This document shows positions 43,789 to 56,556 of a stretch of DNA of 64,000 nt, in pieces. The stretch is taken from contig NZ_KN882176.1 in the NCBI RefSeq assembly GCF_000934755.1, positions 1 to 64,000 on the forward strand, in the 5' to 3' direction. The translations under genes were made by a program, and so were the position numbers. The stretch is from Desulfonatronovibrio magnus. Its GTDB lineage: Bacteria; Desulfobacterota; Desulfovibrionia; Desulfovibrionales; Desulfonatronovibrionaceae. Numbering within the stretch: the first letter of the stretch is position 1; every line of letters starts with the position of its first letter. Under the pieces are notes generated by a model, which did not search any database, was not told the DNA's origin, and was given only the letters and a program-made list of their open reading frames with translations.

Positions 43789-43998
43789 ATGAGCGTAATT
43801 TAAAATCCACAATATGTGGTCGATAACGAGCAAATCACCAAGGCTGTACTTTTAAGCACCGAGGAATGGGAGCAAGTATTATAAGAGCTTGAGGAGCTTG
43901 AAGATATCCGAGCTTATGATGCAGCCAAGGCCGAATCCCAGGAAACGGTGCTGTTTGAAGAGGCAGTGCGGCAGATCCAGGGGGATGGCAAAGAATGA
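43789..43998 (+). pseudogene. Decayed antitoxin of a RelBE-like module (two in-frame stops)
   Basis: From an ATG with AAGGAG upstream the frame reads MSVI-stop-NPQYVVDNEQITKAVLLSTEEWEQVL-stop-ELEELEDIRAYDAAKAESQE..., ending at a TGA that overlaps the next ATG (ATGA). The protein pattern, with AVLLSTEEWEQVLxELEELEDIRAYDAAK, is a Phd/RelB-like antitoxin. Both premature stops are TAA. Confidence 0.8.
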
Positions 43999-44204
43999 CC
44001 TATACGATTGAGATTCTGCGCTCTGCCCAGAAAAAACTCTCATAAATTGAGCCCAAGGAGCAATCGCGTATCATTGAAGCAATCCGAAAATTAGCAGGGA
44101 ACCCCCGGCCTCCTGGTTGTAAAAAACTTTCCGGCAGGCCAGCTTGGCGAATTCGAGTTGGATCTTGTCGGGTTATTGATTTTTTTGAGGCCACGTTCGC
44201 TTAA
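43995..44204 (+). pseudogene. Decayed RelE toxin (in-frame stop and lost C-terminus)
   Basis: MTYTIEILRSAQKKLS-stop-IEPKEQSRIIEAIRKLAGNPRPPGCKKLSGRPAWRIRVGSCRVIDFFEATFA. This is clearly RelE (IxxLAxNPRPxGxKKLxGRxxWRIRxGxYRVIY), with a TAA at codon 17 and the last ~20 residues replaced by T-rich DNA that leads into the aromatic operon leader. Inactive. Confidence 0.85.
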
Positions 44205-44237: not shown

Positions 44238-44266
44238 TTGACAAGACCAAATTTTTTCAATTAAGT
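44238..44266 (+). promoter_or_regulatory. Candidate sigma-70 promoter for the aromatic amino-acid operon
   Basis: TTGACA (44238-44243), a 17-base spacer and TTAAGT (44261-44266) in T-rich DNA. Initiation about seven bases after the -10 box would fall at or within a few bases of the leader-peptide ATG at 44275, so that transcript would be leaderless or nearly so. The -35 is perfect, the -10 weak. Confidence 0.45.
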
Positions 44267-44274
44267 CGATTTCC

Positions 44275-44373
44275 ATGTTAAACAATTCTCTCAATCACAG
44301 TTTCACCAATTTTTATTTTTGGTATTTTTATTTTATCAGGACCTGTGGTCTGGAGGGAAAGGTTTACTCTTAA
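44275..44373 (+). CDS. Aromatic leader peptide of the aro-phe-tyr-trp operon (32 residues)
   Basis: ATG at 44275, TAA at 44371. Residues 13-20 (codons 44311-44334) read FYFWYFYF, eight aromatic residues in a row covering Phe, Tyr and Trp, the three end products of the operon; Phe10 and Tyr31 add more. No Shine-Dalgarno sequence is visible, which fits a start at or near the 5' end of the transcript. The reading frame is followed by an antiterminator arm and an intrinsic terminator, as for trpL/pheL leaders. T-rich DNA encodes Phe and Tyr easily, so the run alone would be weak; the structures around it make the case. Confidence 0.8.
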   Translation: MLNNSLNHSFTNFYFWYFYFIRTCGLEGKVYS

Positions 44374-44412
44374 AACAACTGGTTTAAACTCAACAATCCA
44401 AAGGGCCGCAGG
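44342..44412 (+). promoter_or_regulatory. Candidate antiterminator pairing of the aromatic operon attenuator
   Basis: CCTGTGGTCT (44342-44351), eight bases after the aromatic codons, can pair with GGGCCGCAGG (44403-44412) in ten consecutive pairs, three of them G-U. The second segment contains the 5' arm of the terminator, so the two structures exclude each other. The first segment can also close a local hairpin (GGACC with GGTCT, 44339-44351). A ribosome stalled in 44311-44334 would prevent or bypass the local hairpin and allow the antiterminator. Confidence 0.7.
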
Positions 44413-44435
44413 CAAAAGCCGGCGGCCCTTTTTTT
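44403..44435 (+). terminator. Intrinsic terminator (attenuator) before the first aro gene
   Basis: GGGCCGC (44403-44409) pairs with GCGGCCC (44422-44428). Inside, GGC-AAAA-GCC extends the stem past one A-G mismatch, and seven T residues follow. It lies 29 bases after the leader-peptide stop and 60 before the first gene's ATG, so it must be read through for the operon to be expressed. Confidence 0.9.
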
Positions 44436-44495
44436 GTACCATTTAAACGGGCTGCCACTCGAGCCTGGGCCTCCAAAACAACGGAGGGAACAAAA

Positions 44496-45296
44496 ATGCA
44501 TTTAGGAAAAAAACTCAGACTGGAAAGAATTTTCAATCGTAACACTGGAAGGACAATTATAGTGCCTTTAGATCATGGTGTTACTGTAGGTCCAATTTCA
44601 GGGCTTGTGGATCTGAGGGACACAGTGGGTAAAATAGCAGAAGGCGGAGCCAATGCCGTGGTCATGCATAAAGGTCTGGCCAGGTGCGGTCATCGAGGGG
44701 AAGGCAGTGATGTAGGGCTAATTCTTCATTTGTCTGCCAGCACATCCATATCTCCATATCCCAATGCCAAAACCCTGGTAGGTTCTGTGGAAGATGCCAT
44801 CAAACTTGGAGCCGACGCAGTATCAGTTCATGTGAATCTCGGTGATGAGTCCGAACGGGATATGCTCAGAGATATGGGTATGATTGCTTCCAGGGCAAGC
44901 GATTGGGGCATGCCTCTGCTGGCCATGGTTTATGCAAGAGGCCCCAAGGTCAAGGATGAATATGACGTGGACGTGGTTGCTCATTGCGCCAGGGTTGGCG
45001 AAGAGCTGGGCGCCGATGTAGTCAAGGTGCCTTACACAGGTGATATGGACACATTCACCAAAGTAGTGGAGGCCTGCTGCATTCCTGTGGTAATTGCAGG
45101 TGGTCCCAAACTGGAAAATGGCCGGGACCTGGTCCAGATGGTGTATGATGCTGTTGCTTCAGGTGGAGCAGGCTTGTCCATAGGCAGAAACATTTTTCAG
45201 CACGACAATCCTTCCTTGCTTATAAAAACCCTGAATCAGGTTGTGCATAATGACCTGGAAATTGAAGATGCCATGGAAATGCTGGAAAAGGGTTAG
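44496..45296 (+). CDS. 2-amino-3,7-dideoxy-D-threo-hept-6-ulosonate synthase (class I aldolase family)
   Basis: 266 residues of the DhnA/FbaB-type class I aldolase family. [10 protein letters not shown] near the start, [27 protein letters not shown] and [10 protein letters not shown] (Schiff-base Lys) are in the expected places. In archaea and Desulfovibrio this enzyme (MJ0400-like) condenses L-aspartate semialdehyde with a ketose phosphate and replaces the DAHP synthase step. The neighbour, 3-dehydroquinate synthase II, uses its product. The ribosome site is GGAGGG, nine bases before ATG. First structural gene after the attenuator. Confidence 0.9.
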
Positions 45297-45416: not shown

Positions 45417-46391
45417 ATGAAAAAGAAAATATATTTTAAAGCTGTACCTTTTGACAAAAAGATGGTCACTCTGGCCCTTGAGTCCGGAGTGGATGCCATT
45501 ATTGCAGAAAATAAAGATCTGGAGGGCATTGCTGCTCTGGGCAGAACAGAAGTGCTGGACATTGAAGGATTCAACTTCATGGCTATCAATGAGAAACAGG
45601 ATGAAGAAAAAGTTGTTGAACTTCTAAACACAGGCAGCAAAGTTGTATTGCTTAGAGATGTGGAAATAATTCCAGTGGAAAATATTCTGGCTCAGGCTGT
45701 CAATGTGGGCATGGAAGTGGACAGCCTGACAGGCTTGGAAACAGCTTTCGGCATTCTGGAAAAAGGAGTTGATTATGTGGTGGTTGGTGCTGACAGTGCT
45801 CAGGAGCTCAAAAATATGGTCAAAAGAGTAAAGCAGGACCAGGGCAAGGTGGATATTGTTTCAGCCAAGGTGCTGGAGATTTCTCCCATAGGTCTGGGGC
45901 ATCGGGTATGCGTGGACACCATTTCCCTGTTGAAAACCGGACAGGGCATGCTGGTAGGCAACTCCAGCGCATTTACCTTTCTGGTCAATGCCGAGACCGA
46001 ATCCAACCCTTATGTTGCAGCCAGACCTTTTAGAATAAATGCAGGCGCGGTTCATTCCTACGCATGCCTCCCCCAGGACAAAACTACCTACCTTGAAGAG
46101 CTATGCCCCGGCACAGAAGTGCTTATAGCCGGCCATGACGGGACCAGCTTTTCCGCAGTAGTGGGCAGAATCAAGACAGAAATTCGTCCCATGCTTCTCA
46201 TTACAGCTGAATACGAAGGTAAAAAAGGCAGTGTTGTCCTGCAAAACGCTGAAACCATCAGGCTTGTAGGAGCCAATGGAGTTCCGGTTAGCGTGGTTAA
46301 ACTTCAGGTGGGTGATGAAGTGTTGTGCAAGCTGGATCAGGCTGGAAGGCATTTTGGAATGCGCATCCAGGAAGAGATCAGGGAAGAGTAG
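45417..46391 (+). CDS. 3-dehydroquinate synthase II
   Basis: 324 residues of the archaeal-type DHQ synthase II family (MJ1249-like), which deaminates and cyclises the ADH synthase product to 3-dehydroquinate with NAD. Visible family features: a repetitive N-terminal half (VDAIIAEN, LEGIAALGR), then GLGHRVCVDTISLLKTGQGMLVGNSS, NPYVAARPFRINAGAVHSY and the C-terminal LDQAGRHFGMRIQEEI. A 120-base gap precedes it, containing degenerate heptads (AACGCTG, AATCTTG, TACGTTG, AACTTTC at about 45369-45396). Confidence 0.92.
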   Translation: MKKKIYFKAVPFDKKMVTLALESGVDAIIAENKDLEGIAALGRTEVLDIEGFNFMAINEKQDEEKVVELLNTGSKVVLLRDVEIIPVENILAQAVNVGMEVDSLTGLETAFGILEKGVDYVVVGADSAQELKNMVKRVKQDQGKVDIVSAKVLEISPIGLGHRVCVDTISLLKTGQGMLVGNSSAFTFLVNAETESNPYVAARPFRINAGAVHSYACLPQDKTTYLEELCPGTEVLIAGHDGTSFSAVVGRIKTEIRPMLLITAEYEGKKGSVVLQNAETIRLVGANGVPVSVVKLQVGDEVLCKLDQAGRHFGMRIQEEIREE

Positions 46392-46393
46392 TC

Positions 46394-47482
46394 ATGAACC
46401 AGGAACAAAGTCTGAAACAAATCCGCCATGAGATAAGTACCATAGATGCGGGCATACTTGAATTGCTCAATAAAAGAGCTGTCCTCAGTCTTAAAGTCGG
46501 GGACATCAAATCCCAGTCAAAGGACAGTGTGTTTAAACCTTTCAGAGAGAAGGAAGTATTAAACGGCCTGGCTGTCAAAAATTCCGGTCCCCTGCCTGAA
46601 GAACATTTGCGGGCCATTTACAGGGAGATATTTTCATCATCCAGAAGTCTGCAGCAGAAACAAAGGGTTGCCTACCTCGGGCCTGAGGGAACTTTTTCCT
46701 ATTTTGCCGGAGTGGAGTATCTGGGGCAAAGTGCTGATTTTTTTCCCAAACCAGGACTTGAAGATGTGTTCAGGGCAGTGGATATCCGAGAAGCTGAGCT
46801 GGGCATTATTCCTCTGGAAAACTCTCTCGAAGGCAGTGTGGGCCAGAGCCTTGATCTTTTTATGAAGTTTGAGGTTTTTATACACGCTGAGGTCTTCTGC
46901 CGCATCAGTCACGCTCTTTTGACCCAGGAAAAAGAAGCAGATCAGATTAAAAAGGTATACTCTCATCCCCAGGCCCTGCAACAATGTTCCACCTGGCTGA
47001 AAACCAATTTGCCCGGAATAGCGGTAATTCCTGATGAGAGCACGGCGTCAGCTGCGAGAAGGGCTGCTGGAGAAAAGGGCGCTGCTGCCCTTGGCCACAA
47101 AAATCTGGCCAGGATTTTTCACCTGAATATTGTTGAGCAGGGTCTTGAAGATGTACCGGATAACTGGACCAGGTTTCTAATCATAGGTGCTAATCCCCCT
47201 GAAACTGGCAGTCGGGAGAAAACTTCTCTTCTTTTTACAGTTACAGATAAGCCCGGTTCTCTCGTGACAGCATTGAATGTGTTGTCAAGAAAGGGAATCA
47301 ATATGAAAAAGTTAGAATCACGGCCCATGCGTGTGGAAAAGTGGAGATATGTTTTTTTTACAGACGTTGAATGCGATTTGACTGCTGAAGAATACAAGGA
47401 TGTTTTGAGCGAATTAGCTGAGAGCTGTCATTTCTTAAGAATTCTGGGGAGCTATCCCCAGGGACCTCAGATAACAGCTTAG
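46394..47482 (+). CDS. pheA: Chorismate mutase/prephenate dehydratase
   Basis: 362 residues from the ATG at 46394, two bases after the previous stop. Residues ~5-85 are an AroQ-type chorismate mutase (IRHEISTIDAGILELLNKRAVLSLKVGDIK). Residues ~90-275 are the dehydratase (VAYLGPEGTFSYFA; IPLENSLEGSV; DNWTRFLIIG with the catalytic TRF). The C-terminal ACT domain has the ESRP motif that binds phenylalanine (KLESRPM). It directs chorismate to phenylpyruvate and is probably feedback inhibited. Confidence 0.95.
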   Translation: MNQEQSLKQIRHEISTIDAGILELLNKRAVLSLKVGDIKSQSKDSVFKPFREKEVLNGLAVKNSGPLPEEHLRAIYREIFSSSRSLQQKQRVAYLGPEGTFSYFAGVEYLGQSADFFPKPGLEDVFRAVDIREAELGIIPLENSLEGSVGQSLDLFMKFEVFIHAEVFCRISHALLTQEKEADQIKKVYSHPQALQQCSTWLKTNLPGIAVIPDESTASAARRAAGEKGAAALGHKNLARIFHLNIVEQGLEDVPDNWTRFLIIGANPPETGSREKTSLLFTVTDKPGSLVTALNVLSRKGINMKKLESRPMRVEKWRYVFFTDVECDLTAEEYKDVLSELAESCHFLRILGSYPQGPQITA

Positions 47483-47520: not shown

Positions 47521-48879
47521 ATGAACAGTATAAGTCACATAATACTGAATGCTCCTTCCTCCAAGTCCATGTCTCACAGGGCCATGCTCATGGCTGGTCT
47601 GGCTCAGGGAGAATCAATCTTGAGTAACGTCTTAGACAGCGATGATCTTACCCATACCCGCATGTGCCTTGAAGCCATGGGTGCGCAGTTTGACAGTTCG
47701 GGTTCCAGGCTTGTGGTCAAAGGTCTGGGCGGAAAAGTATCTGCAGCTCCAGGTCAGGTCGTTGGTCTTGATGTAGGTGAATCCGGCACGACCTGCAGGC
47801 TGATAGCAGGCATTGCAGCTGCTGGAAAAGGCAGTTTTAAAATATCAGGCCGCGGCAGAATGCATCAGCGACCCATTAAAAGTTTAGCCGATGCTTTAAT
47901 GCCTTTTAATATTATTTTTTCTTACCAGGAGGCTCACGGTTGTCCGCCGGTAATCATCGAAACCCAGGGCCTTCCCGGTGGAGAGCTGTCCATATCTTTG
48001 GAAGAAAGCAGCCAGTATCTGTCAGGAATTCTTTTGGGATCCATCATGGCTGAAGATGAGATGGTTATAAACCTGACCGGAAGCAAAGTGGTATCATGGC
48101 CTTACGTTAATCTGACCCTGCAGGTTATGGATGAGTTTGGTTGTGGACCGGAAATACAGGTTGAAGAAAGTGGAAAATGGGTGAGTGTTTCAGCTTCTCA
48201 AGTAAAGGAAGCAAAGCCGGGCAAAATAAGATTTATTGTCCGCCCTTTAACTGTAGCTGGCAGAGACTATCAGGTTGAAGGCGATTTCAGTAATGCGTCA
48301 TATCTTCTCGCAGCTGGGGCTCTTGGCCCAAGGCCCACAATGGTCACAGGGCTGAACCCTCAATCCAGGCAGGGGGACAGGGTTATCTTAGATATTCTGC
48401 AAAAGATGGGAGCCAGAGTTGAGATAAGCAATAAGGGTGTACTTGTGGAAGGTGCCCGGCTTAAAGGCGTGGACTTAGATATGGGAGCAAGCCCGGATCT
48501 GGTTCCTACGGTAGCTGTGCTGGCATCCCAGGCCAGGGGGATTACTAAAATAACCAATGTAGCCCATTTGAGAATCAAGGAAAGTGACCGCCTTGAGGGT
48601 GTATTCAACGAGGTGAGCAGGACAGGCTGCAAATGCAGCATGTTAGATGATGGTCTGATCATTGACCCTGAAGGGTTTGAGTCAGACAGAGAAATAAAAT
48701 TTTCCACATATGATGATCACCGCATGGCCATGAGCCTTTCATTGTATCAGCTTACAGGAATCAATGTTGTTCTGGATAATCCTGACTGCGTGAAAAAATC
48801 CTTTCCAGGATTCTGGGATGAATGGAGCAAAGTGGTATCTGGGATGGGGAAGGCTGAAGGAGGGAAGGCTGAAGGCTGA
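47521..48879 (+). CDS. aroA: 3-phosphoshikimate 1-carboxyvinyltransferase (EPSP synthase)
   Basis: 452 residues. LNAPSSKSMSHRAMLMAGLAQG binds shikimate 3-phosphate and PEP; VGESGTTCRLIAG, RGRMHQRPIKSLADAL, RLKESDR-type HLRIKESDRLEGV and the catalytic DDHRMAMSLSL follow. The protein normally ends near FPGFWDEW; here the reading continues through GMGKAEGGKAEG, encoded by the AGGCTGA heptads, one of which gives the TGA stop. The tail is probably dispensable. No ribosome site is obvious before the ATG. Confidence 0.95.
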   Translation: MNSISHIILNAPSSKSMSHRAMLMAGLAQGESILSNVLDSDDLTHTRMCLEAMGAQFDSSGSRLVVKGLGGKVSAAPGQVVGLDVGESGTTCRLIAGIAAAGKGSFKISGRGRMHQRPIKSLADALMPFNIIFSYQEAHGCPPVIIETQGLPGGELSISLEESSQYLSGILLGSIMAEDEMVINLTGSKVVSWPYVNLTLQVMDEFGCGPEIQVEESGKWVSVSASQVKEAKPGKIRFIVRPLTVAGRDYQVEGDFSNASYLLAAGALGPRPTMVTGLNPQSRQGDRVILDILQKMGARVEISNKGVLVEGARLKGVDLDMGASPDLVPTVAVLASQARGITKITNVAHLRIKESDRLEGVFNEVSRTGCKCSMLDDGLIIDPEGFESDREIKFSTYDDHRMAMSLSLYQLTGINVVLDNPDCVKKSFPGFWDEWSKVVSGMGKAEGGKAEG

Positions 48880-48980: not shown

Positions 48981-49754
48981 ATGAATGATTCTCAAATAGC
49001 CATTATTGGCGGGCACGGTCAGATGGGGCGGATGTTAGACAAAAGATTTTCTGATGTCGGCTTGAAAGTTCTTTGTCTGGATCAGCCCCTGCCTGAAGAT
49101 GAGCTCGAAGCTCTTCTGTCTCCTTGCAGGCTGGTTATTCTGGCCGTGCCCATTTCTGTCTTTGCCCAGGTTACTGAATTGATTGCACCCAGAATGGCCC
49201 AGGGAACGATTTTAACTGATATTTGCTCAGTCAAGGTAACCCCGCTCATGCATATGGAAAGGCTTTATACAGGCCCTGTGGTGGGGACTCATCCCTTGTT
49301 TGGTCCTGACCCAAAACCCGATCATGAGCTTAAGGTTGCCCTGTGCCCTGGTACTGGCACAGATCAAAATAGCGTGGAATTGGTTGAAAAAATATTCAAC
49401 AAGGCCGGGATGCGAACGTTTATCTGTTCGGCCAGGGAGCATGATCAGGCCATGGCCTGCATCCAGAGTCTTAATTTTGTTACAACAATATCATATTTTG
49501 CCAGCTTGCCCCAGGATCTTGATCTGGAAAAGTTTTCCACACCGTCATTTATGCGCAGGCTTAACTCAGCCCGGAAGATGCTCAATGAAGACGCTTATCT
49601 TTTTTCATCTCTTGCTGAAGACAATCCTTATACTGGACAAATGATTCGCAGGTTCAAATCTTTTCTTAACTTAAGTGCAGCAGGTGAGCTGGAACTTCTG
49701 CAGGACAAGGCCCTCTGGTGGTGGCGTAATGAAAATGAAAAAGGGGGGCCATAA
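48981..49754 (+). CDS. tyrA: Prephenate dehydrogenase, with a Trp-Trp-Trp tail
   Basis: 257 residues. The NAD-binding loop IAIIGGHGQMGRMLDKRF, VILAVPISVF and GTHPLFGPDPKPD (prephenate-binding His region) identify it; QSLNFVTTISYF lies in the helical dimer domain. It oxidises prephenate to hydroxyphenylpyruvate for tyrosine. The tail is KALWWWRNENEKGGP. These three Trp are the only ones in the protein, and they lie 66 bases before a terminator preceding trpE. The tail therefore probably doubles as a Trp-sensing leader; see the attenuator entry. Confidence 0.93.
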   Translation: MNDSQIAIIGGHGQMGRMLDKRFSDVGLKVLCLDQPLPEDELEALLSPCRLVILAVPISVFAQVTELIAPRMAQGTILTDICSVKVTPLMHMERLYTGPVVGTHPLFGPDPKPDHELKVALCPGTGTDQNSVELVEKIFNKAGMRTFICSAREHDQAMACIQSLNFVTTISYFASLPQDLDLEKFSTPSFMRRLNSARKMLNEDAYLFSSLAEDNPYTGQMIRRFKSFLNLSAAGELELLQDKALWWWRNENEKGGP

Positions 49755-49829
49755 TGTCTTTTATACATGCGTTTAGTGTAACTAAAAAAGCCGCGTTCAG
49801 CCCCCCCAGGGCAGGACGCGGCTTTTTTT
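49743..49829 (+). terminator. Internal attenuator between tyrA and trpE
   Basis: The terminator stem pairs 49790-49803 with 49809-49822, fourteen positions with one A-A mismatch and one G-U, loop CCCCA, then seven T (49823-49829). An alternative pairing GGGGGGC (49743-49749, last codons of tyrA) with GCCCCCC (49800-49806) overlaps the inner stem and loop and would block it. A ribosome held on the Trp codons 49716-49724 leaves the G-run free; one that reaches the TAA at 49752 covers it. This is the logic of a trp attenuator. Confidence 0.75.
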
Positions 49830-49872: not shown

Positions 49873-51282
49873 ATGATCAAACTTAAGCAAAAGGCAACCT
49901 GCCTGCCGGCAGATACCCAGACTCCGGTATCTTTGTATCTTGGCTTTGTGGGCAGGGAAAAGGGAATTCTACTGGAAAGCTCGGAAGTAGACGGCAGGCT
50001 GGGACGATACAGCCTGCTTGCCTGGGATTTCAGGCTGCAGCTTGGGAGCAGGGAAGGCAAGCTCACTGTAAAGTGTCTCGATAATCGCTTGGATTCCATC
50101 AAAGATTTTGAAGGGCTGGATTTTACCGAGGGTGTGCGCAAAGTGCTGGAAGAAATTGAAATCGAGGCTGACAGTGAGTTTGACCTGCCGCCCATGACCA
50201 GGGCTGTTTATGGTTATTTTGGATATGGAATGAGCGGACTTTTGGAACCAAAGCTGGCTCAGGCCCTGCCTGCCGAGCAGACTGAAGCCCAGCTTGTACT
50301 TCCCGGAAGGATGCTTCTTTTCGACCATCTGCACTATCATTGTTATTACTTATGTCTTGATAATGATCTATCCCTGCCCAAACCCAAGCCATCAAGAGCC
50401 AAGTCCCAATTTAAAGTGGGCAAAATCACCACTTATCCTGACCAGGAAAAATATCACGACTGGGTAATCAAAACCAAAGAGCTTATCAGGCAGGGAGAAG
50501 CCATTCAGGTGGTGTTGTCCACCAGGTTTGAAGCACCGTTTAAAGGAGATCCGTTTCTTGTATACCGTCATTTGCGCAGAATAAATCCCTCCCCATATAC
50601 CTTTTTTCTCAATTTGGACGGGGTTTCTTTGATGGGGTCTTCTCCTGAGCTTATGGTTAAATGCGGGAAAAATGTTCTGCAGTTGAGACCCATTGCAGGC
50701 ACCAGGCCCAGGGGTGAGACAGAGAAAGAGGACCAGGCCCTGGCTGATGAACTATTGCAGGATGAAAAGGAACGGGCCGAGCATGTCATGCTTGTGGATC
50801 TGGGGCGTAACGACCTGGGCCGTATTGCTCAAGCCGGCAGTGTTGAAGTAGATAAGTTCATGCAGGTGGAGCGCTTTTCCCATGTCATGCACCTGACCTC
50901 GTATCTTTCTGCTCTTTTGAAAAAAGATATGGATGTGGTGGACATATTAAAGGCATCCTTTCCAGCTGGTACAGTTTCAGGCGCGCCCAAAATAAGGGCT
51001 ATGGAGATCATTTCTGAAATGGAGGAGCTGCCTCGCGGCCCTTACGCCGGAGCCATTGGCTGGATTGGACTGGATCAGGGCAAGGTGAATATGGATACAG
51101 GTATAACTATCAGAAGTCTTTGGATCAGGGACGGCAAGATTCACTGGCAGGCCGGAGCTGGTGTTGTTTACGATTCAGTCCCTGAAAAAGAATGGCAGGA
51201 ATGCGCCAACAAGGCCAAAGCCATTCTCAAAGCCCTAAGCTACACAGGAGGAACAGATGATTTTGCTCATAGACAACTTTGA
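49873..51282 (+). CDS. trpE: Anthranilate synthase component I
   Basis: 469 residues. LLESSEVDGRLGRYSLL near residue 35 has the Trp-binding LLESS feedback motif. The catalytic half shows RQGEAIQVVLSTRF, NLDGVSLMGSSPELMV, PIAGTRPRGETEKED and LVDLGRNDLGR, FPAGTVSGAPKIRAMEII. It converts chorismate and ammonia or glutamine to anthranilate with TrpG, whose gene overlaps its end by 26 bases. GGAG lies upstream of the ATG, after the internal attenuator. Confidence 0.96.
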   Translation: MIKLKQKATCLPADTQTPVSLYLGFVGREKGILLESSEVDGRLGRYSLLAWDFRLQLGSREGKLTVKCLDNRLDSIKDFEGLDFTEGVRKVLEEIEIEADSEFDLPPMTRAVYGYFGYGMSGLLEPKLAQALPAEQTEAQLVLPGRMLLFDHLHYHCYYLCLDNDLSLPKPKPSRAKSQFKVGKITTYPDQEKYHDWVIKTKELIRQGEAIQVVLSTRFEAPFKGDPFLVYRHLRRINPSPYTFFLNLDGVSLMGSSPELMVKCGKNVLQLRPIAGTRPRGETEKEDQALADELLQDEKERAEHVMLVDLGRNDLGRIAQAGSVEVDKFMQVERFSHVMHLTSYLSALLKKDMDVVDILKASFPAGTVSGAPKIRAMEIISEMEELPRGPYAGAIGWIGLDQGKVNMDTGITIRSLWIRDGKIHWQAGAGVVYDSVPEKEWQECANKAKAILKALSYTGGTDDFAHRQL

Positions 51283-51835
51283 TTCCTTTACTTTCAACCT
51301 GGTTCAGGTGCTTCAAAAAATCGGGGTGGACCCTGTTGTTGTTAGAAACAATGACGATTTTGTGTTTGAAGCTCTTGAGGGTAAACTTGAAGGAGTGATT
51401 ATTTCGCCTGGCCCCAGCAGACCTGAGAATGCAGGACTTTGCTTAGATTTTTTAGAAAAGCTGGACCAGAGTATACCCGTTCTCGGTGTATGCCTTGGCC
51501 ACCAGATACTGGGCCATTTTTCAGGGGCTGAAGTAAAGGTGGCTGACAGGATCATGCACGGCAAGACAAGCAGGGTCTACCATGAACAAAAAGGAATTTT
51601 TCAGGGCATTCCCAGTCCTTTTGAAGTGTGTCGTTACCATTCCCTGCTGGTTATTCCGGGTTCTGAGCCAAAGTTTGAGGTTACAGCGAGAACCAGAAGC
51701 GGTGAAGTGATGGGACTGCAATATTTAGATCGACCATGGATGGGAGTCCAGTTTCACCCGGAATCTATACTTACGCCTATGGGACCTCAGATTGTGGAGA
51801 ATTTTGTCAGGGTTGTAGGGAGTTTTAGGTTTTAA
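51257..51835 (+). CDS. trpG: Anthranilate synthase component II (glutamine amidotransferase)
   Basis: 192 residues. The class I amidotransferase triad is visible: Cys in LGVCLGHQILG, His and Glu in GVQFHPESIL. IDNFDSFTFNLVQ and SPGPSRPENAG are further family motifs. It supplies ammonia to TrpE. Start AGGAGGAACAGATG lies within the trpE 3' end, giving tight coupling of the two subunits. Confidence 0.96.
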   Translation: MILLIDNFDSFTFNLVQVLQKIGVDPVVVRNNDDFVFEALEGKLEGVIISPGPSRPENAGLCLDFLEKLDQSIPVLGVCLGHQILGHFSGAEVKVADRIMHGKTSRVYHEQKGIFQGIPSPFEVCRYHSLLVIPGSEPKFEVTARTRSGEVMGLQYLDRPWMGVQFHPESILTPMGPQIVENFVRVVGSFRF

Positions 51836-51907
51836 GTTTTAGGTGTTTTGATTGCCTGCAAGAATCATTTTTTGCAGGGAAATTTGAATAGTAAATGGAG
51901 AAACACA

Positions 51908-52900
51908 ATGAACATTCAAAAATCTTTGAATAAAATATGTGAAAGGCAGAATCTTGATTACGAAGAAAGTCTTGATATATTCAGGGCTCTTTTTCAGGGT
52001 GACATCACCCCTGCCCAGAGCGGAGCCTTGCTTCTCGGGCTCAGACTCAAAGGCGAAACCGGCGATGAACTGGCTGCTGCAGTAAAAGTGGCTTTAGAAA
52101 AGGCCCGACTGGTCAATAATATGCAAGGCGTGCGTATAGATACCTGCGGTACAGGCGGAGACGGACGCAACAGCTTTAACTGCTCTACTGCGGTTGCTTT
52201 TTTTCTGGCAGATATGGGGGTAAGCGTAGTCAAACATGGCAACAGGGCTGTATCAAGCTCCTGTGGAAGTGCTGATGTGGTTGAAGCACTGGGACTGCCT
52301 CTATTAGATGATCCGGCAAAGGTCGGCCCTGAGCTTGATAAAATAAATTTTGCCTTCTTATTTGCCCCGCACTTTCATCCCGGTTTTGCCGGCATTGCCC
52401 CCTTACGCCAGGAACTGGGCATAAGAAGTATATTCAACCTGATGGGCCCATTGCTAAATCCTGCCCGGCCCACGCATCAGATTCTTGGTGTACCATCAGA
52501 AATATTTATGCCTCTAATGGCTGCGGTGCTGCAAAAGAATGAGGTGAAGTCAGCAGCAGTGGTGCATGGAGCCCAGGGTTTTGATGAACTCACGCCATGC
52601 GGAGTTAATAAAGTAATCTTTGTCAGTGAACAGGGGCTCAAAGGCCAACCCATTGATCCGACTGAATTTGGTTTTAATCTATGCTCTCCTGAAGATCTGG
52701 CCTGCCAGGATAAGGATGAGGCATTGAAACGTCAAAGAGAAATACTTAGTGGCTGCGGTCCTCAGGCCATGCAGGACATGGTGGCCCTTAATCTTGGGCT
52801 TGGCATTGCACTTCTTAACCCAGAATTAGATATAAAAGAGTGTATGGTTCAGGCCAGAAAAAAAGTTGGTTCCGGACTTAAAAACCTGCAGGTATTTTGA
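51908..52900 (+). CDS. trpD: Anthranilate phosphoribosyltransferase
   Basis: 330 residues from the ATG at 51908 (the in-frame ATG at 51848 lacks a ribosome site and adds an atypical extension). PRPP-binding DTCGTGGDGRNSFNCST, the KHGNRAVSSSCGSADVVEALG loop and FAPHFHPGFAGIAPLRQELGIRSIFNLMGPLLNPA are all present. It joins anthranilate and PRPP. The 72-base gap before it holds a small stem (CTGCAA...TTGCAG near 51858-51879). Confidence 0.95.
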   Translation: MNIQKSLNKICERQNLDYEESLDIFRALFQGDITPAQSGALLLGLRLKGETGDELAAAVKVALEKARLVNNMQGVRIDTCGTGGDGRNSFNCSTAVAFFLADMGVSVVKHGNRAVSSSCGSADVVEALGLPLLDDPAKVGPELDKINFAFLFAPHFHPGFAGIAPLRQELGIRSIFNLMGPLLNPARPTHQILGVPSEIFMPLMAAVLQKNEVKSAAVVHGAQGFDELTPCGVNKVIFVSEQGLKGQPIDPTEFGFNLCSPEDLACQDKDEALKRQREILSGCGPQAMQDMVALNLGLGIALLNPELDIKECMVQARKKVGSGLKNLQVF

Positions 52901-52901
52901 A

Positions 52902-53675
52902 ATGAAAAATCAGATGCTCAAAAAATTCATGGATGCCAAGCAGGAAGAGATTAAGGCATTGCAAATGCTGGCTGCTTCTGGAAAGTCAGCGTCTGTTTAT
53001 GATGGTCCAAGGCCTGGGTTTCTCGATGCCCTGAAAAGATCTGGCCCGTCCATAATTGCTGAATACAAAAGGTCCTCCCCGTCCAAAGGGGAAATTAACA
53101 AAGATCTTTCACCTGAACAGGCTGCCCAAATGTTTGTCAACGGAGGGGCAAGCTGTTGTTCTGTACTGACTGAAAAAATGTATTTTCAGGGTGATTTAGA
53201 TTATCTGCAAATATTTGCGGATCAGAACCTGCCTGTATTGCGCAAGGATTTTCTGTTTCATCCCTTGCAAATCATAGAAACAGCCGCCACCAAGTCATCA
53301 GCCTTACTGCTCATTGTCAGAGTGATTGAGGATCAAATGCTTTTAACTGAACTGGTGCGAAGCAGCCTTGACTATAGTATTGAGCCAGTGGTGGAAATAT
53401 TCAGTGAAAAGGAGCTTGATCTTGCAACCGCTGCCGGGGCAAGACTGATACTGGTAAACAATAGAGACCTGGATCTGCTTAAAGTGGACCTGAAAGTTTC
53501 AAGAAAGCTCATAAAAAACAAGCCCGCACACCAGACCTGGATTTGTGCCAGCGGTATTGAAGAAAAAGATCAGATTGATGAGTTTCACGCTCTGGGATTT
53601 GAGGCCTTTTTGATCGGAACCAGCATTATGTCTGCACCCAATCCGCAACAAAAACTCAAGGAGCTTGGAGCATGA
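52902..53675 (+). CDS. trpC: Indole-3-glycerol-phosphate synthase
   Basis: 257 residues from the ATG at 52902, one base after the trpD stop. A longer frame from 52866 lies inside trpD. IIAEYKRSSPSKGEI (catalytic Lys and Glu region), VLTEKMYFQGDLDYL, LRKDFLFHPLQI, LVNNRDL and CASGIEEKDQ are in TIM-barrel order. It makes indole-3-glycerol phosphate. Its end overlaps trpF by four bases (ATGA). Confidence 0.95.
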   Translation: MKNQMLKKFMDAKQEEIKALQMLAASGKSASVYDGPRPGFLDALKRSGPSIIAEYKRSSPSKGEINKDLSPEQAAQMFVNGGASCCSVLTEKMYFQGDLDYLQIFADQNLPVLRKDFLFHPLQIIETAATKSSALLLIVRVIEDQMLLTELVRSSLDYSIEPVVEIFSEKELDLATAAGARLILVNNRDLDLLKVDLKVSRKLIKNKPAHQTWICASGIEEKDQIDEFHALGFEAFLIGTSIMSAPNPQQKLKELGA

Positions 53676-54292
53676 AAAAAAGGCTTGTCAAAGTATGTGG
53701 TCTCACCAGCTGCCAAGACCTTGCGTTTTGCCAGGATATTGGTGTTGACCTGACCGGCTTTATTTTTCATCCGCCCAGCCCGCGATATATTGATCCTGTT
53801 GTTGTTGGTCGATGGGAGAAAAAAACAGAGCTTCGGGTGGGAGTGTTTGTCCACTCGGATATTGAAAAGATTATTGATACCATTGAAACAGCAAGGCTTG
53901 ATCTTGTTCAGTTGCATGGGGGACAGGATGAAAAGGTGTGTCTGAGCATTGGTCCGGAGCGGGTAATGCGCGTCTTCTGGCCTGAAAGGCATGTCATGAA
54001 GGATGATTTTGAGCAGGAACTGGATTCTTTTAAAGAAGTCTGCAGTTTTTACCTGTTAGACGCTGGTACAAGTTCGGGTGGTCATGGCAGGAGTATTGCC
54101 AGCCCCTGGCTTTGGGATTTGATTACCGCAAAGCCCTGGTTTCTCGCTGGAGGTCTTAGCCCGGATAATATTAAGGGTGTTTTGGATCTTGGCATGACAG
54201 GGCTGGATTTAAATTCCGGTGTTGAGCTGAGTCCGGGAATCAAAGATCATGATAAGATTAGAAGAATAATGAAAATAATTTTTGATATGTGA
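53672..54292 (+). CDS. trpF: Phosphoribosylanthranilate isomerase
   Basis: 206 residues, TIM barrel. [14 protein letters not shown] holds the catalytic Cys; [24 protein letters not shown] (catalytic Asp) and [14 protein letters not shown] follow. It rearranges phosphoribosylanthranilate to CdRP. The order D-C-F with separate C and F proteins contrasts with the E. coli trpCF fusion. Confidence 0.95.
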
Positions 54293-54315
54293 ATTTCAAT
54301 CTACAGGAGATAGTC

Positions 54316-55485
54316 ATGAAAAAAGGATATTTTGGGGATTTTGGAGGGCAGTTTGTGCCGGAACTGCTGGTGCCGCCCCTGACTGAACTGGAAAAGGCCA
54401 TGCAGGAGATCATGGATGGACCGGAATTCAATACAGAGTTGGAGCAGGTGTTTTCCGATTTTGTGGGCAGACCCACCCCCATTTGCAAATGTTTTAATCT
54501 GTCAAAGGAGCTGGGTTTTGAGCTCTGGCTCAAGCGTGAAGATCTGGCTCATACAGGAGCCCATAAAATTAACAATACCATTGGCCAGGCCCTGTTGACC
54601 AAACATATGGGTAAAAAATGTCTTCTTGCTGAAACTGGAGCTGGACAGCACGGAGTAGCCACGGCAACGGCAGCAGCAGTGCTTGGGCTTGAGTGTATTG
54701 TATTTATGGGTGCCTTGGATGTAGAGAGGCAAAGCCATAACGTACGCAGGATGGAGCTGCTCGGTGCAAAGGTGGAACCGGTGCAAAGCGGAACCAAAAC
54801 CCTCAAGGATGCCATTAATGCTGCGCTGCGTCACTGGATAGCTCATCAGCAGGATACTCATTATTGTCTGGGATCAGTGGTGGGGCCTCATCCCTTTCCT
54901 TTACTGGTCAGGAAACTGCAGTCAGTTATTGGACAGGAGGCCAGGAAACAGTTCATGGATCGTCTGAGCAGGTTGCCGGATATTGTTGTGGCCTGTGTGG
55001 GTGGCGGGTCCAATGCCATGGGCATATTTCATCCTTTTGCAGAAGATAAAGATGTAGATCTGGTGGGCGTTGAAGCTGGAGGCGAGGGATCACCTGACTG
55101 TTTTCATTCTGCCACATTGTCCAAAGGAACTTCAGGGGTGCTGCATGGAACTCGCACCTATCTTTTACAGACAGAGGACGGACAGATTATGCCCTCCCAT
55201 TCAGTGGCACCCGGGCTTGACTATCCAGGAGTCGGGCCGGAGCATTCTTTTTTAAAAGACAGTGGTCGGGCCAGATATGATGTAATATATGATCACCAGG
55301 CATTGCAGGGTTTTTACACTCTGTGTCGCAAGGAAGGAATTATCCCGGCCTTGGAAAGTTCTCATGCCCTGGCCTGGGTTCTGGAAAACAGGGAAAGCAT
55401 TGCCAAAGGCTCTGTGGTATTGGTCAATCTGTCCGGACGTGGTGACAAGGATCTTGATATTGTCCGGGAGATTGAAGCTGGTTAG
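54316..55485 (+). CDS. trpB: Tryptophan synthase beta chain
   Basis: 389 residues from the ATG at 54316 (AGGAGATAGTC upstream); the frame also opens at 54289 inside trp[16 protein letters not shown] at the start, [15 protein letters not shown] with the PLP-binding Lys, [24 protein letters not shown] phosphate loop and SGRGDKD at the end identify it as the ordinary TrpB1 type. It condenses indole and serine. Confidence 0.96.
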
Positions 55486-55500
55486 TAAGGTTTCAACTGT

Positions 55501-55753
55501 AAAAAAATGTAACTGTTCACCATCCAGCTGCCATTTTCAAAAGCGAAATGCAAAATACTGGACCCCGGATCATTTTCGGGGTGTCGGTTAAAGCAGATTC
55601 TTACTCTTTACCGTCATTCCGGCCAAAGCCGGAATCCAGAAAACAACAGGTTAGCACAGAAGTCAGCCTGTAGAACTGCATAAAAGCATGCTGAACAGAA
55701 ATAAATAAACACAACAACCGTTAACAATTAACTGATAACATTTAACTCTCAAG
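55501..55753. repeat. Repeats separating trpB from trpA
   Basis: In the 306-base gap between trpB and trpA: a 23-bp motif identical to 19048-19070 (55501-55523), a REP-like double palindrome (55557-55640) matching 9133-9214, and a heptad array (AACCGTT, AACAATT, AACTGAT, AACATTT, AACTCTC, then AAG; 55716-55753). Elsewhere from trpE to trpB the spacing is small or overlapping, so these appear inserted. Confidence 0.75.
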
Positions 55754-55791
55754 CTGCAGAACTTTTTTAGTTCAATGATAAGGAATAAAAT

Positions 55792-56556
55792 ATGAGTAAT
55801 ATCCTGACAGACAGAATAAAGACTGCCCTTTCAGACGGGCGAAAGGCTTTGATCCCTTTTGTGCCTGCAGGTTTTCCAGATAAGGCTCAGTTCTGGGACA
55901 TCATTATGGAACTTGATGACTCAGGCGCGGATATTATTGAAATTGGTGTCCCTTTTTCCGATCCAGTGGCTGATGGCCCTGTGGTGGAAAAGGCATCCAT
56001 CAGATGCCTCGATCAGGGGGTCAATCTGCATTGGATTATGCAGGGGCTTGCAAAGTACAGAAAAAACATAAGTGCTGGAATTGTACTCATGGGCTACTTT
56101 AATCCGTTTTTACAGTATGGGCTTGACAGCCTGGCCAGCAAGGCAGCAGAGGTGGGAGTTAATGGAATTATTATTCCTGATCTCATCTTAGAGGAAGCAT
56201 TGCCTCACTTGGATCAGCTTCAACCCTCAGGATTGTCCTTTATACCTCTCGTGGGACTCAACACTCCACAAGAGCGAATGAATAAGTATTCACAAACAAA
56301 ACCGGCTTTTGTGTATCTGGTTTCTGTTCTGGGTATAACCGGAACAAAAGCAAGCGCAACTCAGTTGCTGCGCGATAAACTAAAACAGGTAAAAGAAAGC
56401 TTTGCATGTCCTGCTGCGCTGGGATTTGGCCTAAGCTCCAAAGAACAGTTAGAACCCATTGCGGATCTGGTGGAAGCGGTAGTGTTTGGCAGCGCTCTGA
56501 TCAAGCATCTTGACCAGGGCAAAACAGCGAGAGATTTTATGCGGGCCTGGGCTTAA
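55792..56556 (+). CDS. trpA: Tryptophan synthase alpha chain
   Basis: 254 residues. IEIGVPFSDPVADGPVVEKAS contains the catalytic Glu and Asp; GIVLMGYFNPFLQYG, GVNGIIIPDLILEEA and GFGLSSKEQL with VFGSALI follow. It splits indole-3-glycerol phosphate and passes indole to TrpB. AAGGAAT lies just upstream. Last gene of the operon. Confidence 0.96.
   Translation: MSNILTDRIKTALSDGRKALIPFVPAGFPDKAQFWDIIMELDDSGADIIEIGVPFSDPVADGPVVEKASIRCLDQGVNLHWIMQGLAKYRKNISAGIVLMGYFNPFLQYGLDSLASKAAEVGVNGIIIPDLILEEALPHLDQLQPSGLSFIPLVGLNTPQERMNKYSQTKPAFVYLVSVLGITGTKASATQLLRDKLKQVKESFACPAALGFGLSSKEQLEPIADLVEAVVFGSALIKHLDQGKTARDFMRAWA

Follow-up and report, generated by a model that had tools for sequence, protein, structure and literature searches.

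The window analysed here, a 64,000-nt stretch of DNA from the sulfate-reducing bacterium Desulfonatronovibrio magnus, carries twelve genes in the order aroA′-aroB′-pheA-aroA-tyrA-trpEGDCFBA behind a short leader, which raises the question of how one merged operon could be adjusted to the supply of phenylalanine, tyrosine and tryptophan. A first-pass annotation of the sequence had proposed that a single leader peptide with codons for all three end products would do so by attenuation. The 32-codon frame, its FYFWYFYF run, the 10-pair antiterminator and the seven-T terminator that it described all lie where it had placed them, and the merged aromatic operon behind them was confirmed by open reading frames and by Pfam and NCBIfam profiles. 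It had overlooked a −35 box at 44238–44243 as well as WWW codons and a second terminator between tyrA and trpE. We consider it quite likely, from sequence and comparison, that the operon is under two ribosome-mediated transcription attenuators in series, termed here gate 1 and gate 2. The genes downstream of the leader are as follows.

44496–45296, + strand: aroA′, 2-amino-3,7-dideoxy-D-threo-hept-6-ulosonate synthase (ADH synthase; NCBIfam TIGR01949, 398.8 bits against a cut-off of 299)
45417–46391, + strand: aroB′, 3-dehydroquinate synthase II (Pfam PF01959)
46397–47482, + strand: pheA, chorismate mutase/prephenate dehydratase with an ACT domain (Pfam CM_2, PDT, ACT)
47521–48879, + strand: aroA, EPSP synthase (TIGR01356)
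48981–49754, + strand: tyrA, prephenate dehydrogenase (Pfam PDH_N), C-terminal tail ...ALWWWRNENEKGGP
49873–56556, + strand: trpE, trpG, trpD, trpC, trpF, trpB, trpA (open reading frames; tblastn with these proteins)

The identities of aroA′, aroB′, pheA, aroA and tyrA were taken from Pfam and NCBIfam profiles, and tblastn with the window's trp proteins recovered the identical gene order in relatives.

A conserved aromatic frame with an antiterminator and a terminator

Gate 1 occupies the region directly upstream of aroA′ and consists of the following elements.

44275–44373, + strand: leader peptide gene, 32 codons, product MLNNSLNHSFTNFYFWYFYFIRTCGLEGKVYS followed by a stop; predicted to be leaderless, with its ATG at or near the 5′ end of the transcript
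44286–44300, + strand: segment 1 (anti-antiterminator), pairing with approximately 44343–44359 in the fold of the window RNA
44311–44334, + strand: control codons FYFWYFYF (TTT TAT TTT TGG TAT TTT TAT TTT), in the loop between segments 1 and 2
44342–44351, + strand: segment 2, the 5′ arm of the antiterminator, CCTGTGGTCT
44403–44413, + strand: segment 3, the 3′ arm of the antiterminator (44403–44412, GGGCCGCAGG) and 5′ arm of the terminator
44418–44435, + strand: segment 4 with its T7 tail (44429–44435), the intrinsic terminator of the whole-operon attenuator (44403–44413 pairing with 44418–44428)

The aromatic leader frame is no chance frame. Its best score is eight aromatic residues in nine codons, a value reached in none of 1,000 shuffles of the 300 nt upstream that kept the dinucleotides, where the highest other score, seven in nine, came up in a single trial. 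This leader holds the only instance of the codon pattern (F/Y)3-W-(F/Y)4 in the 4.8-Mb genome. The ten antiterminator pairs (44342–44351 with 44403–44412) include some G-U pairs, and the terminator (44401–44437) has a free energy of −23.8 kcal/mol. Within it, A44410 stands opposite G44421, a mismatch that is conserved because A44410 must pair with U in the antiterminator.

The first-pass annotation had suggested comparison with the region before the orthologous first gene in other Desulfovibrionales, and there the aromatic frame proved to be present. Aromatic leaders were found 5′ of aroA′ in nearly all of the Desulfovibrionales loci examined, and the full element, a leader with all three aromatic residues followed by an antiterminator and a terminator, precedes the orthologous gene throughout the order. 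At least six aromatic residues in nine codons were counted at 57 of 63 Desulfovibrionales loci as against 6 of 1,260 shuffles, and a covariance model built on the segment from antiterminator to terminator found matches in 144 of 150 Desulfovibrionales genomes. Aromatic leaders also occur in many other families of Desulfobacterota, with fewer Trp codons there. In an alignment of 52 leaders, 99.8% of the cells pair in the terminator, where three pairs show double changes, and 96.5% pair in the antiterminator, where one pair changes from U-A to C-G in six sequences; the covariation of the antiterminator rests on that one pair, and the arm varies little. F and Y codons end in T or C, and TTA/TTG are rare, in stretches that had been preselected for aromatic content. 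By inspection, many relatives also share a CCACAG motif (N-H-S codons) at segment 1. Gate 1 thus combines a short frame rich in end-product codons, of predicted translation, with a conserved and mutually exclusive antiterminator and intrinsic terminator, as a ribosome-mediated attenuator does.

Leader composition and downstream genes

Across the loci compared, leader composition tracks the genes that follow: F, Y and W together where trp is in the operon, W only at separate trp operons, F only at a symporter gene, and Y only or F only at monocistronic aroA′ genes. Where trp belongs to the operon, 23 of 24 scored leaders contain all three residues. The leader that does not, L187 of Desulfothermus, differs by one base within a run of T and reads F/Y/W if the extra T is a sequencing error. 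Where trp forms a separate operon, trpE often stands behind a W-only leader of its own, such as GWWWRKQLRGGDVRA in genus g12.

This correspondence bears on whether the single Trp codon of the window's gate 1 leader is used at all. The leader might respond mainly to Phe and Tyr, with the Trp codon incidental, since F/Y-only runs occur in 15 of 41 aro operons that lack trp and gate 2 can serve Trp. W is nevertheless present in the leaders of 23 of 24 merged operons as against 26 of 41 trp-less ones (Fisher p = 0.003, kinship ignored), and it is missing from the aro leaders of both genomes in which trpE was not detected (G048 and G058, approximately 99% complete; loci L041, L051, L169 and L170). 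These leaders read FAYGYY and FVYDYY, and same-genus relatives have FFWYFYF and trp; the two genomes are, by their gene content, likely Trp auxotrophs. We therefore regard a response mainly to Phe and Tyr as unlikely and favour a leader that would sense all three amino acids, although its Trp response in the window could be weak, given the single Trp codon. A strict rule by which only trp-containing operons have W in their leader was rejected on the same 26 of 41 trp-less operons; W is sensible there because the common pathway also feeds Trp.

Second copies of aroA′ that appear to be monocistronic carry Y-only (L160, L162 and L168) or F-only (L164) leaders, and at L332 an aroA′ gene lies behind an F-only leader, with no other operon gene in the stretch fetched. 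By their leaders, these second copies resemble amino-acid-specific isozymes of the first pathway enzyme. In several Desulfovibrionaceae, an F-only leader with the architecture of gate 1 precedes a gene for an SSF-family symporter (Pfam PF00474), which we propose as a candidate Phe-regulated phenylalanine transporter.

At these symporter loci (L328, L330, L334, L336, L338, L340, L342, L343, L345, L347, L348 and L353), the Phe-rich leaders, mostly of the leaderless type (for example FSFFFFFSFRFF), lie 5′ of a small membrane-protein frame and the SSF-family sodium:solute symporter. In one Desulfothermus draft genome, frame changes affect both a leader T-run (L019) and tyrA (L187); they are probably sequencing errors.

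A second, Trp-only attenuator predicted in the tail of tyrA

Gate 2 emerged when the trp genes were checked for any further control. Its elements in the window are listed below.

49716–49724, + strand: three Trp control codons, TGG TGG TGG, within tyrA
49743–49750, + strand: segment 2 of the internal attenuator, GGGGGGCC, directly 5′ of the tyrA stop, identified by its duplex with the 5′ arm and loop of the terminator and by a coevolution test on 35 loci
49790–49829, + strand: internal intrinsic terminator between tyrA and trpE, GCCGCGTTC...GGACGCGGC, with a T7 tail and a C-run in its loop (local fold −27.1 kcal/mol)

The view that a single leader is the whole control was not supported by this comparison, as most merged operons have a second, Trp-only attenuator between tyrA and trpE with its Trp codons inside tyrA. 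In 35 linked loci and in most of 23 further genomes, the WW(W) tail recurs together with a terminator and with a segment complementary to it close to the tyrA stop; the arrangement is absent in g263 and g16, and there trpE begins 2–5 nt after tyrA. Here the Trp codons lie just 5′ of an antiterminator/terminator switch, in the 3′ end of tyrA rather than in a dedicated leader peptide gene, and would act in the manner of a leader. With a ribosome placed at the tyrA stop, antiterminator pairing drops in 34 of 35 loci; in the window the change is small (0.67 to 0.54).

Alternatively, gate 1 alone could regulate all twelve genes, the terminator before trpE being a leaky intra-operon terminator and WWW a structural feature of TyrA. 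Consistent with this, nearly all merged operons carry a Trp codon in gate 1, and unlinked TyrA within Desulfovibrionales retains WW or WWW, as does TyrA at four loci where the internal terminator is gone (L161, L390, L393 and L395). Against this stands a segment just before or after the tyrA stop that is complementary to the terminator arm and coevolves with it. These segments vary between species yet match their own terminator: own-species duplexes average −23.8 kcal/mol as against −18.8 kcal/mol for cross-species ones, none of 20,000 permutations did as well (35 loci, shared ancestry ignored), and at L163, L165, L374 and L185 different sequences form the same pairing. Further arguments against it are the distance from the W-run to the tyrA stop, mostly 36–42 nt, and the g12 genomes with a free trp operon, in which a short leader has the WWWR and GGGGGAG layout of the tyrA tail. 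Regulation by gate 1 alone therefore appears improbable to us. We find it likely, though a little less so than the presence of two attenuators as such, that the TyrA tail (WWW) acts as the leader peptide of a Trp-only gate into trp, behind a leaderless F/Y/W front gate, and that this gate became a free-standing WWW leader in g12 after trp moved away.

The proposal that WWW is in TyrA solely for attenuation is not supported, as WWW persists in unlinked TyrA; the Trp codons of TyrA may serve the protein itself or be a relic. In the cases seen outside Desulfovibrionales, TyrA has no W tail. In D. hydrothermalis, trpE, trpG and trpD are reported to change at 10 versus 0.1 MPa (PMC4162548), which is weakly compatible with separate control of the trp part.

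Promoter and predicted leaderless start

Upstream of the leader ATG, two promoter elements were located.

44238–44243, + strand: −35 box TTGACA of the operon promoter, starting 37 nt 5′ of the leader ATG
44261–44266, + strand: candidate −10 element TTAAGT after a 17-nt spacer, a weak match read from the sequence; relatives have TTTATA or TATAAG at the equivalent place

With genus g12 excluded, all 53 Desulfovibrionales loci have a −35 box (at least five of six matches) that starts 35–40 nt (mostly 37 nt) 5′ of the leader ATG; a Shine-Dalgarno-like motif is present at only 5 of these 53. In a further set of 20 loci, symporter leaders included, the distance was 35–39 nt in 18. A −35 box at a fixed distance from the ATG, together with usual promoter spacing, places the transcript start at or a few bases from the ATG. 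The leader peptide is thus probably leaderless, with a predicted transcript start within a few nucleotides of A44275.

If the transcript instead began further upstream, the leader would be translated from an ordinary 5′ untranslated region. The weakness of the window's −10 element, a consensus promoter scan of the window that detected no promoter 5′ of the leader, and the five Shine-Dalgarno-like motifs are what such a start would lead one to expect. Against it stand the constant distance of TTGACA from the ATG, seen in 53 of 53 loci, and the loci where the spacing differs: in g12 and outside the order, −35 boxes lie mostly 53–59 nt from the ATG, and this longer spacing goes with Shine-Dalgarno-like motifs, found in 9 of 10 g12 loci and 34 of 47 loci outside the order (the 47 include one duplicate of the window's own locus, misfiled as outside). 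An upstream start for the window's leader is accordingly rather doubtful, and the leaderless start is preferred.

Directly 5′ of the leader promoter, positions 43995–44204 hold a frame like a small RelE/ParE-type toxin (TYTIEILRSAQKKLS, stop, IEPKEQSRIIEAIRKL...), with an in-frame TAA after approximately 16 codons. By its sequence appearance, it is probably a broken toxin gene of a toxin–antitoxin pair.

A proposed two-gate mechanism

The frames and alternative pairings with their conservation, the distance from −35 box to ATG and the agreement of leaders with genes were all seen in the sequence and by comparison. In the course of events that we infer from them, the start of transcription, translation, ribosome stalling and the effect of each amino acid are predictions. 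At gate 1 (44275–44435), RNA polymerase would start at or a few bases from the leader ATG, and a ribosome would load on the 5′-terminal AUG and trail the polymerase. When charged tRNA-Phe, -Tyr or -Trp is scarce, it would stall in FYFWYFYF; a ribosome stalled between segments 1 and 2 would prevent 1:2 pairing, so that 2:3 forms, the terminator is blocked and the whole operon would be transcribed. With no shortage, the ribosome would reach the leader stop, segment 2 would be covered or re-paired with segment 1, and the 3:4 terminator would halt transcription before aroA′. At gate 2 (49716–49829), the ribosome finishing tyrA would read the three Trp codons and, if Trp-tRNA is short, stall there, and the G-rich segment before the tyrA stop could then pair with the C-rich terminator arm, letting the polymerase enter trpEGDCFBA. 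When Trp suffices, the segment would be hidden under a ribosome at the tyrA stop, the terminator would form and only the common, Phe and Tyr genes would be made.

Folding with and without ribosome masking, which the first-pass annotation had suggested as a check, gave a mixed result. The RNA from 44270 to 44440 (171 nt) folds at −51.1 kcal/mol (z = −5.25), and none of 200 shuffles was equally stable. For transcripts ended before the last terminator arm, in equilibrium folds with a simple 31-nt ribosome footprint and no kinetics, antiterminator pairing averaged 0.94 over 61 leaders when the first aromatic codon was occupied by the ribosome, and 0.30 when the ribosome stood at the stop. Values were lower at late codons of the aromatic run because the ribosome starts to cover segment 2. 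The window's own leader did not follow this average at the stop, where its value was 1.00, because the usual stop is missing from it and its frame runs on for two more codons, ending 22 rather than 16 nt after segment 2 and hence 6 nt further on than in most relatives. In the window, termination would then rest on 1:2 pairing forming first, and the window RNA favours this pairing before segment 3 is made.

Relation to known attenuators

Classical cases of multivalent ribosome-mediated attenuation are found in the E. coli ilvGMEDA and thr leaders, which differ from gate 1 in being Shine-Dalgarno-led and in serving another pathway. Like gate 1, trpL and pheL (Rfam Trp_leader and Phe_leader, RF01859) combine control codons, alternative hairpins and an intrinsic terminator, but each senses one amino acid, and in gate 1 segments 1 and 2 enclose a loop that holds the control codons. 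An Rfam scan of the window gave RF01859 at 16.7 bits, against a gathering score of 55, and Trp_leader was not among the matches up to E = 10; the matches at this permissive threshold were discarded as chance-level and driven by the terminator. We give hardly any credence to a metabolite- or protein-sensing element (riboswitch, T-box or protein-dependent) in place of a ribosome-mediated attenuator, as the strong RNA structure that would suit it comes with no Rfam family at gathering score (Phe_leader being the best), with conservation of an aromatic open frame whose F and Y codons end in T or C, and with codon content that follows gene content.

That known leaders sense one amino acid, as the first-pass annotation had it, is wrong in general. 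According to the available part of its description, the Corynebacterium glutamicum ilvBNC leader (IlvL, MTIIRLVVVTARRLP) has Ile, Val and Leu codons and a transcript start one nucleotide from the ATG (PMC11857589). It resembles gate 1 in being multivalent for three pathway end products and in antiterminator/terminator attenuation, and differs in that it concerns branched-chain amino acids in an actinobacterium, with no second, in-gene attenuator mentioned in that part. Leaderless leader peptides have thus been described in Actinobacteria, there and in Streptomyces lividans (trpL1, MFAHSTRNWWWTAHPAAH, and others; PMC8079986); the latter have the leaderless start that is predicted for gate 1, and control codons as it does, but are single-pathway, separate small genes. 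A putative attenuator before the D. vulgaris aroA′-aroB′-aroQ/pheA-aroF-tyrA-[trp] supraoperon had been listed from a database of predicted attenuators (Song, Bonner and Jensen 2005, PMC1173090, Table 7). Operon and position correspond to gate 1; the sections of that paper considered here mark one attenuator, at the front, and mention neither a leader peptide nor the amino acid sensed, nor a leaderless start or an internal attenuator.

A limited search of the open-access literature found no transcript starts mapped in Desulfovibrionales and no description of a trivalent aromatic leader, of a leaderless start in Desulfovibrionales or of a trp leader in the TyrA tail. Ribosome-mediated attenuation is known, and multivalent and leaderless leaders are known separately; their combination and the enzyme-embedded trp leader appear to be new. 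If the proposal is correct, a merged operon would handle several end products by purely RNA-based control, with a shared three-aromatic gate and a nested gate for the most costly product; it would also exemplify an enzyme whose tail doubles as a leader peptide, and leaderless attenuator peptides in bacteria other than Actinobacteria. From the leader code (F, Y, W and mixtures), function could then be predicted: the symporter would be a candidate phenylalanine transporter, and the single-gene aroA′ copies would be isozymes controlled by Tyr or Phe. The same supraoperon is reported for D. vulgaris, which would make it a possible experimental host.

Variant arrangements in other genomes

At L346 and L397 (G447:C73), an aromatic leader of the same architecture is followed directly by what remains of tyrA and by trpE, and the genome carries the element once more, on C40; this may mean that the assembly is rearranged or mixed, or that the gate has been duplicated. 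Outside Desulfovibrionales, at L135 and L231 (G101), aroA′ is followed directly by trpEGDCF, and the leader is W-rich (YTYWWGFFFYFYTW).
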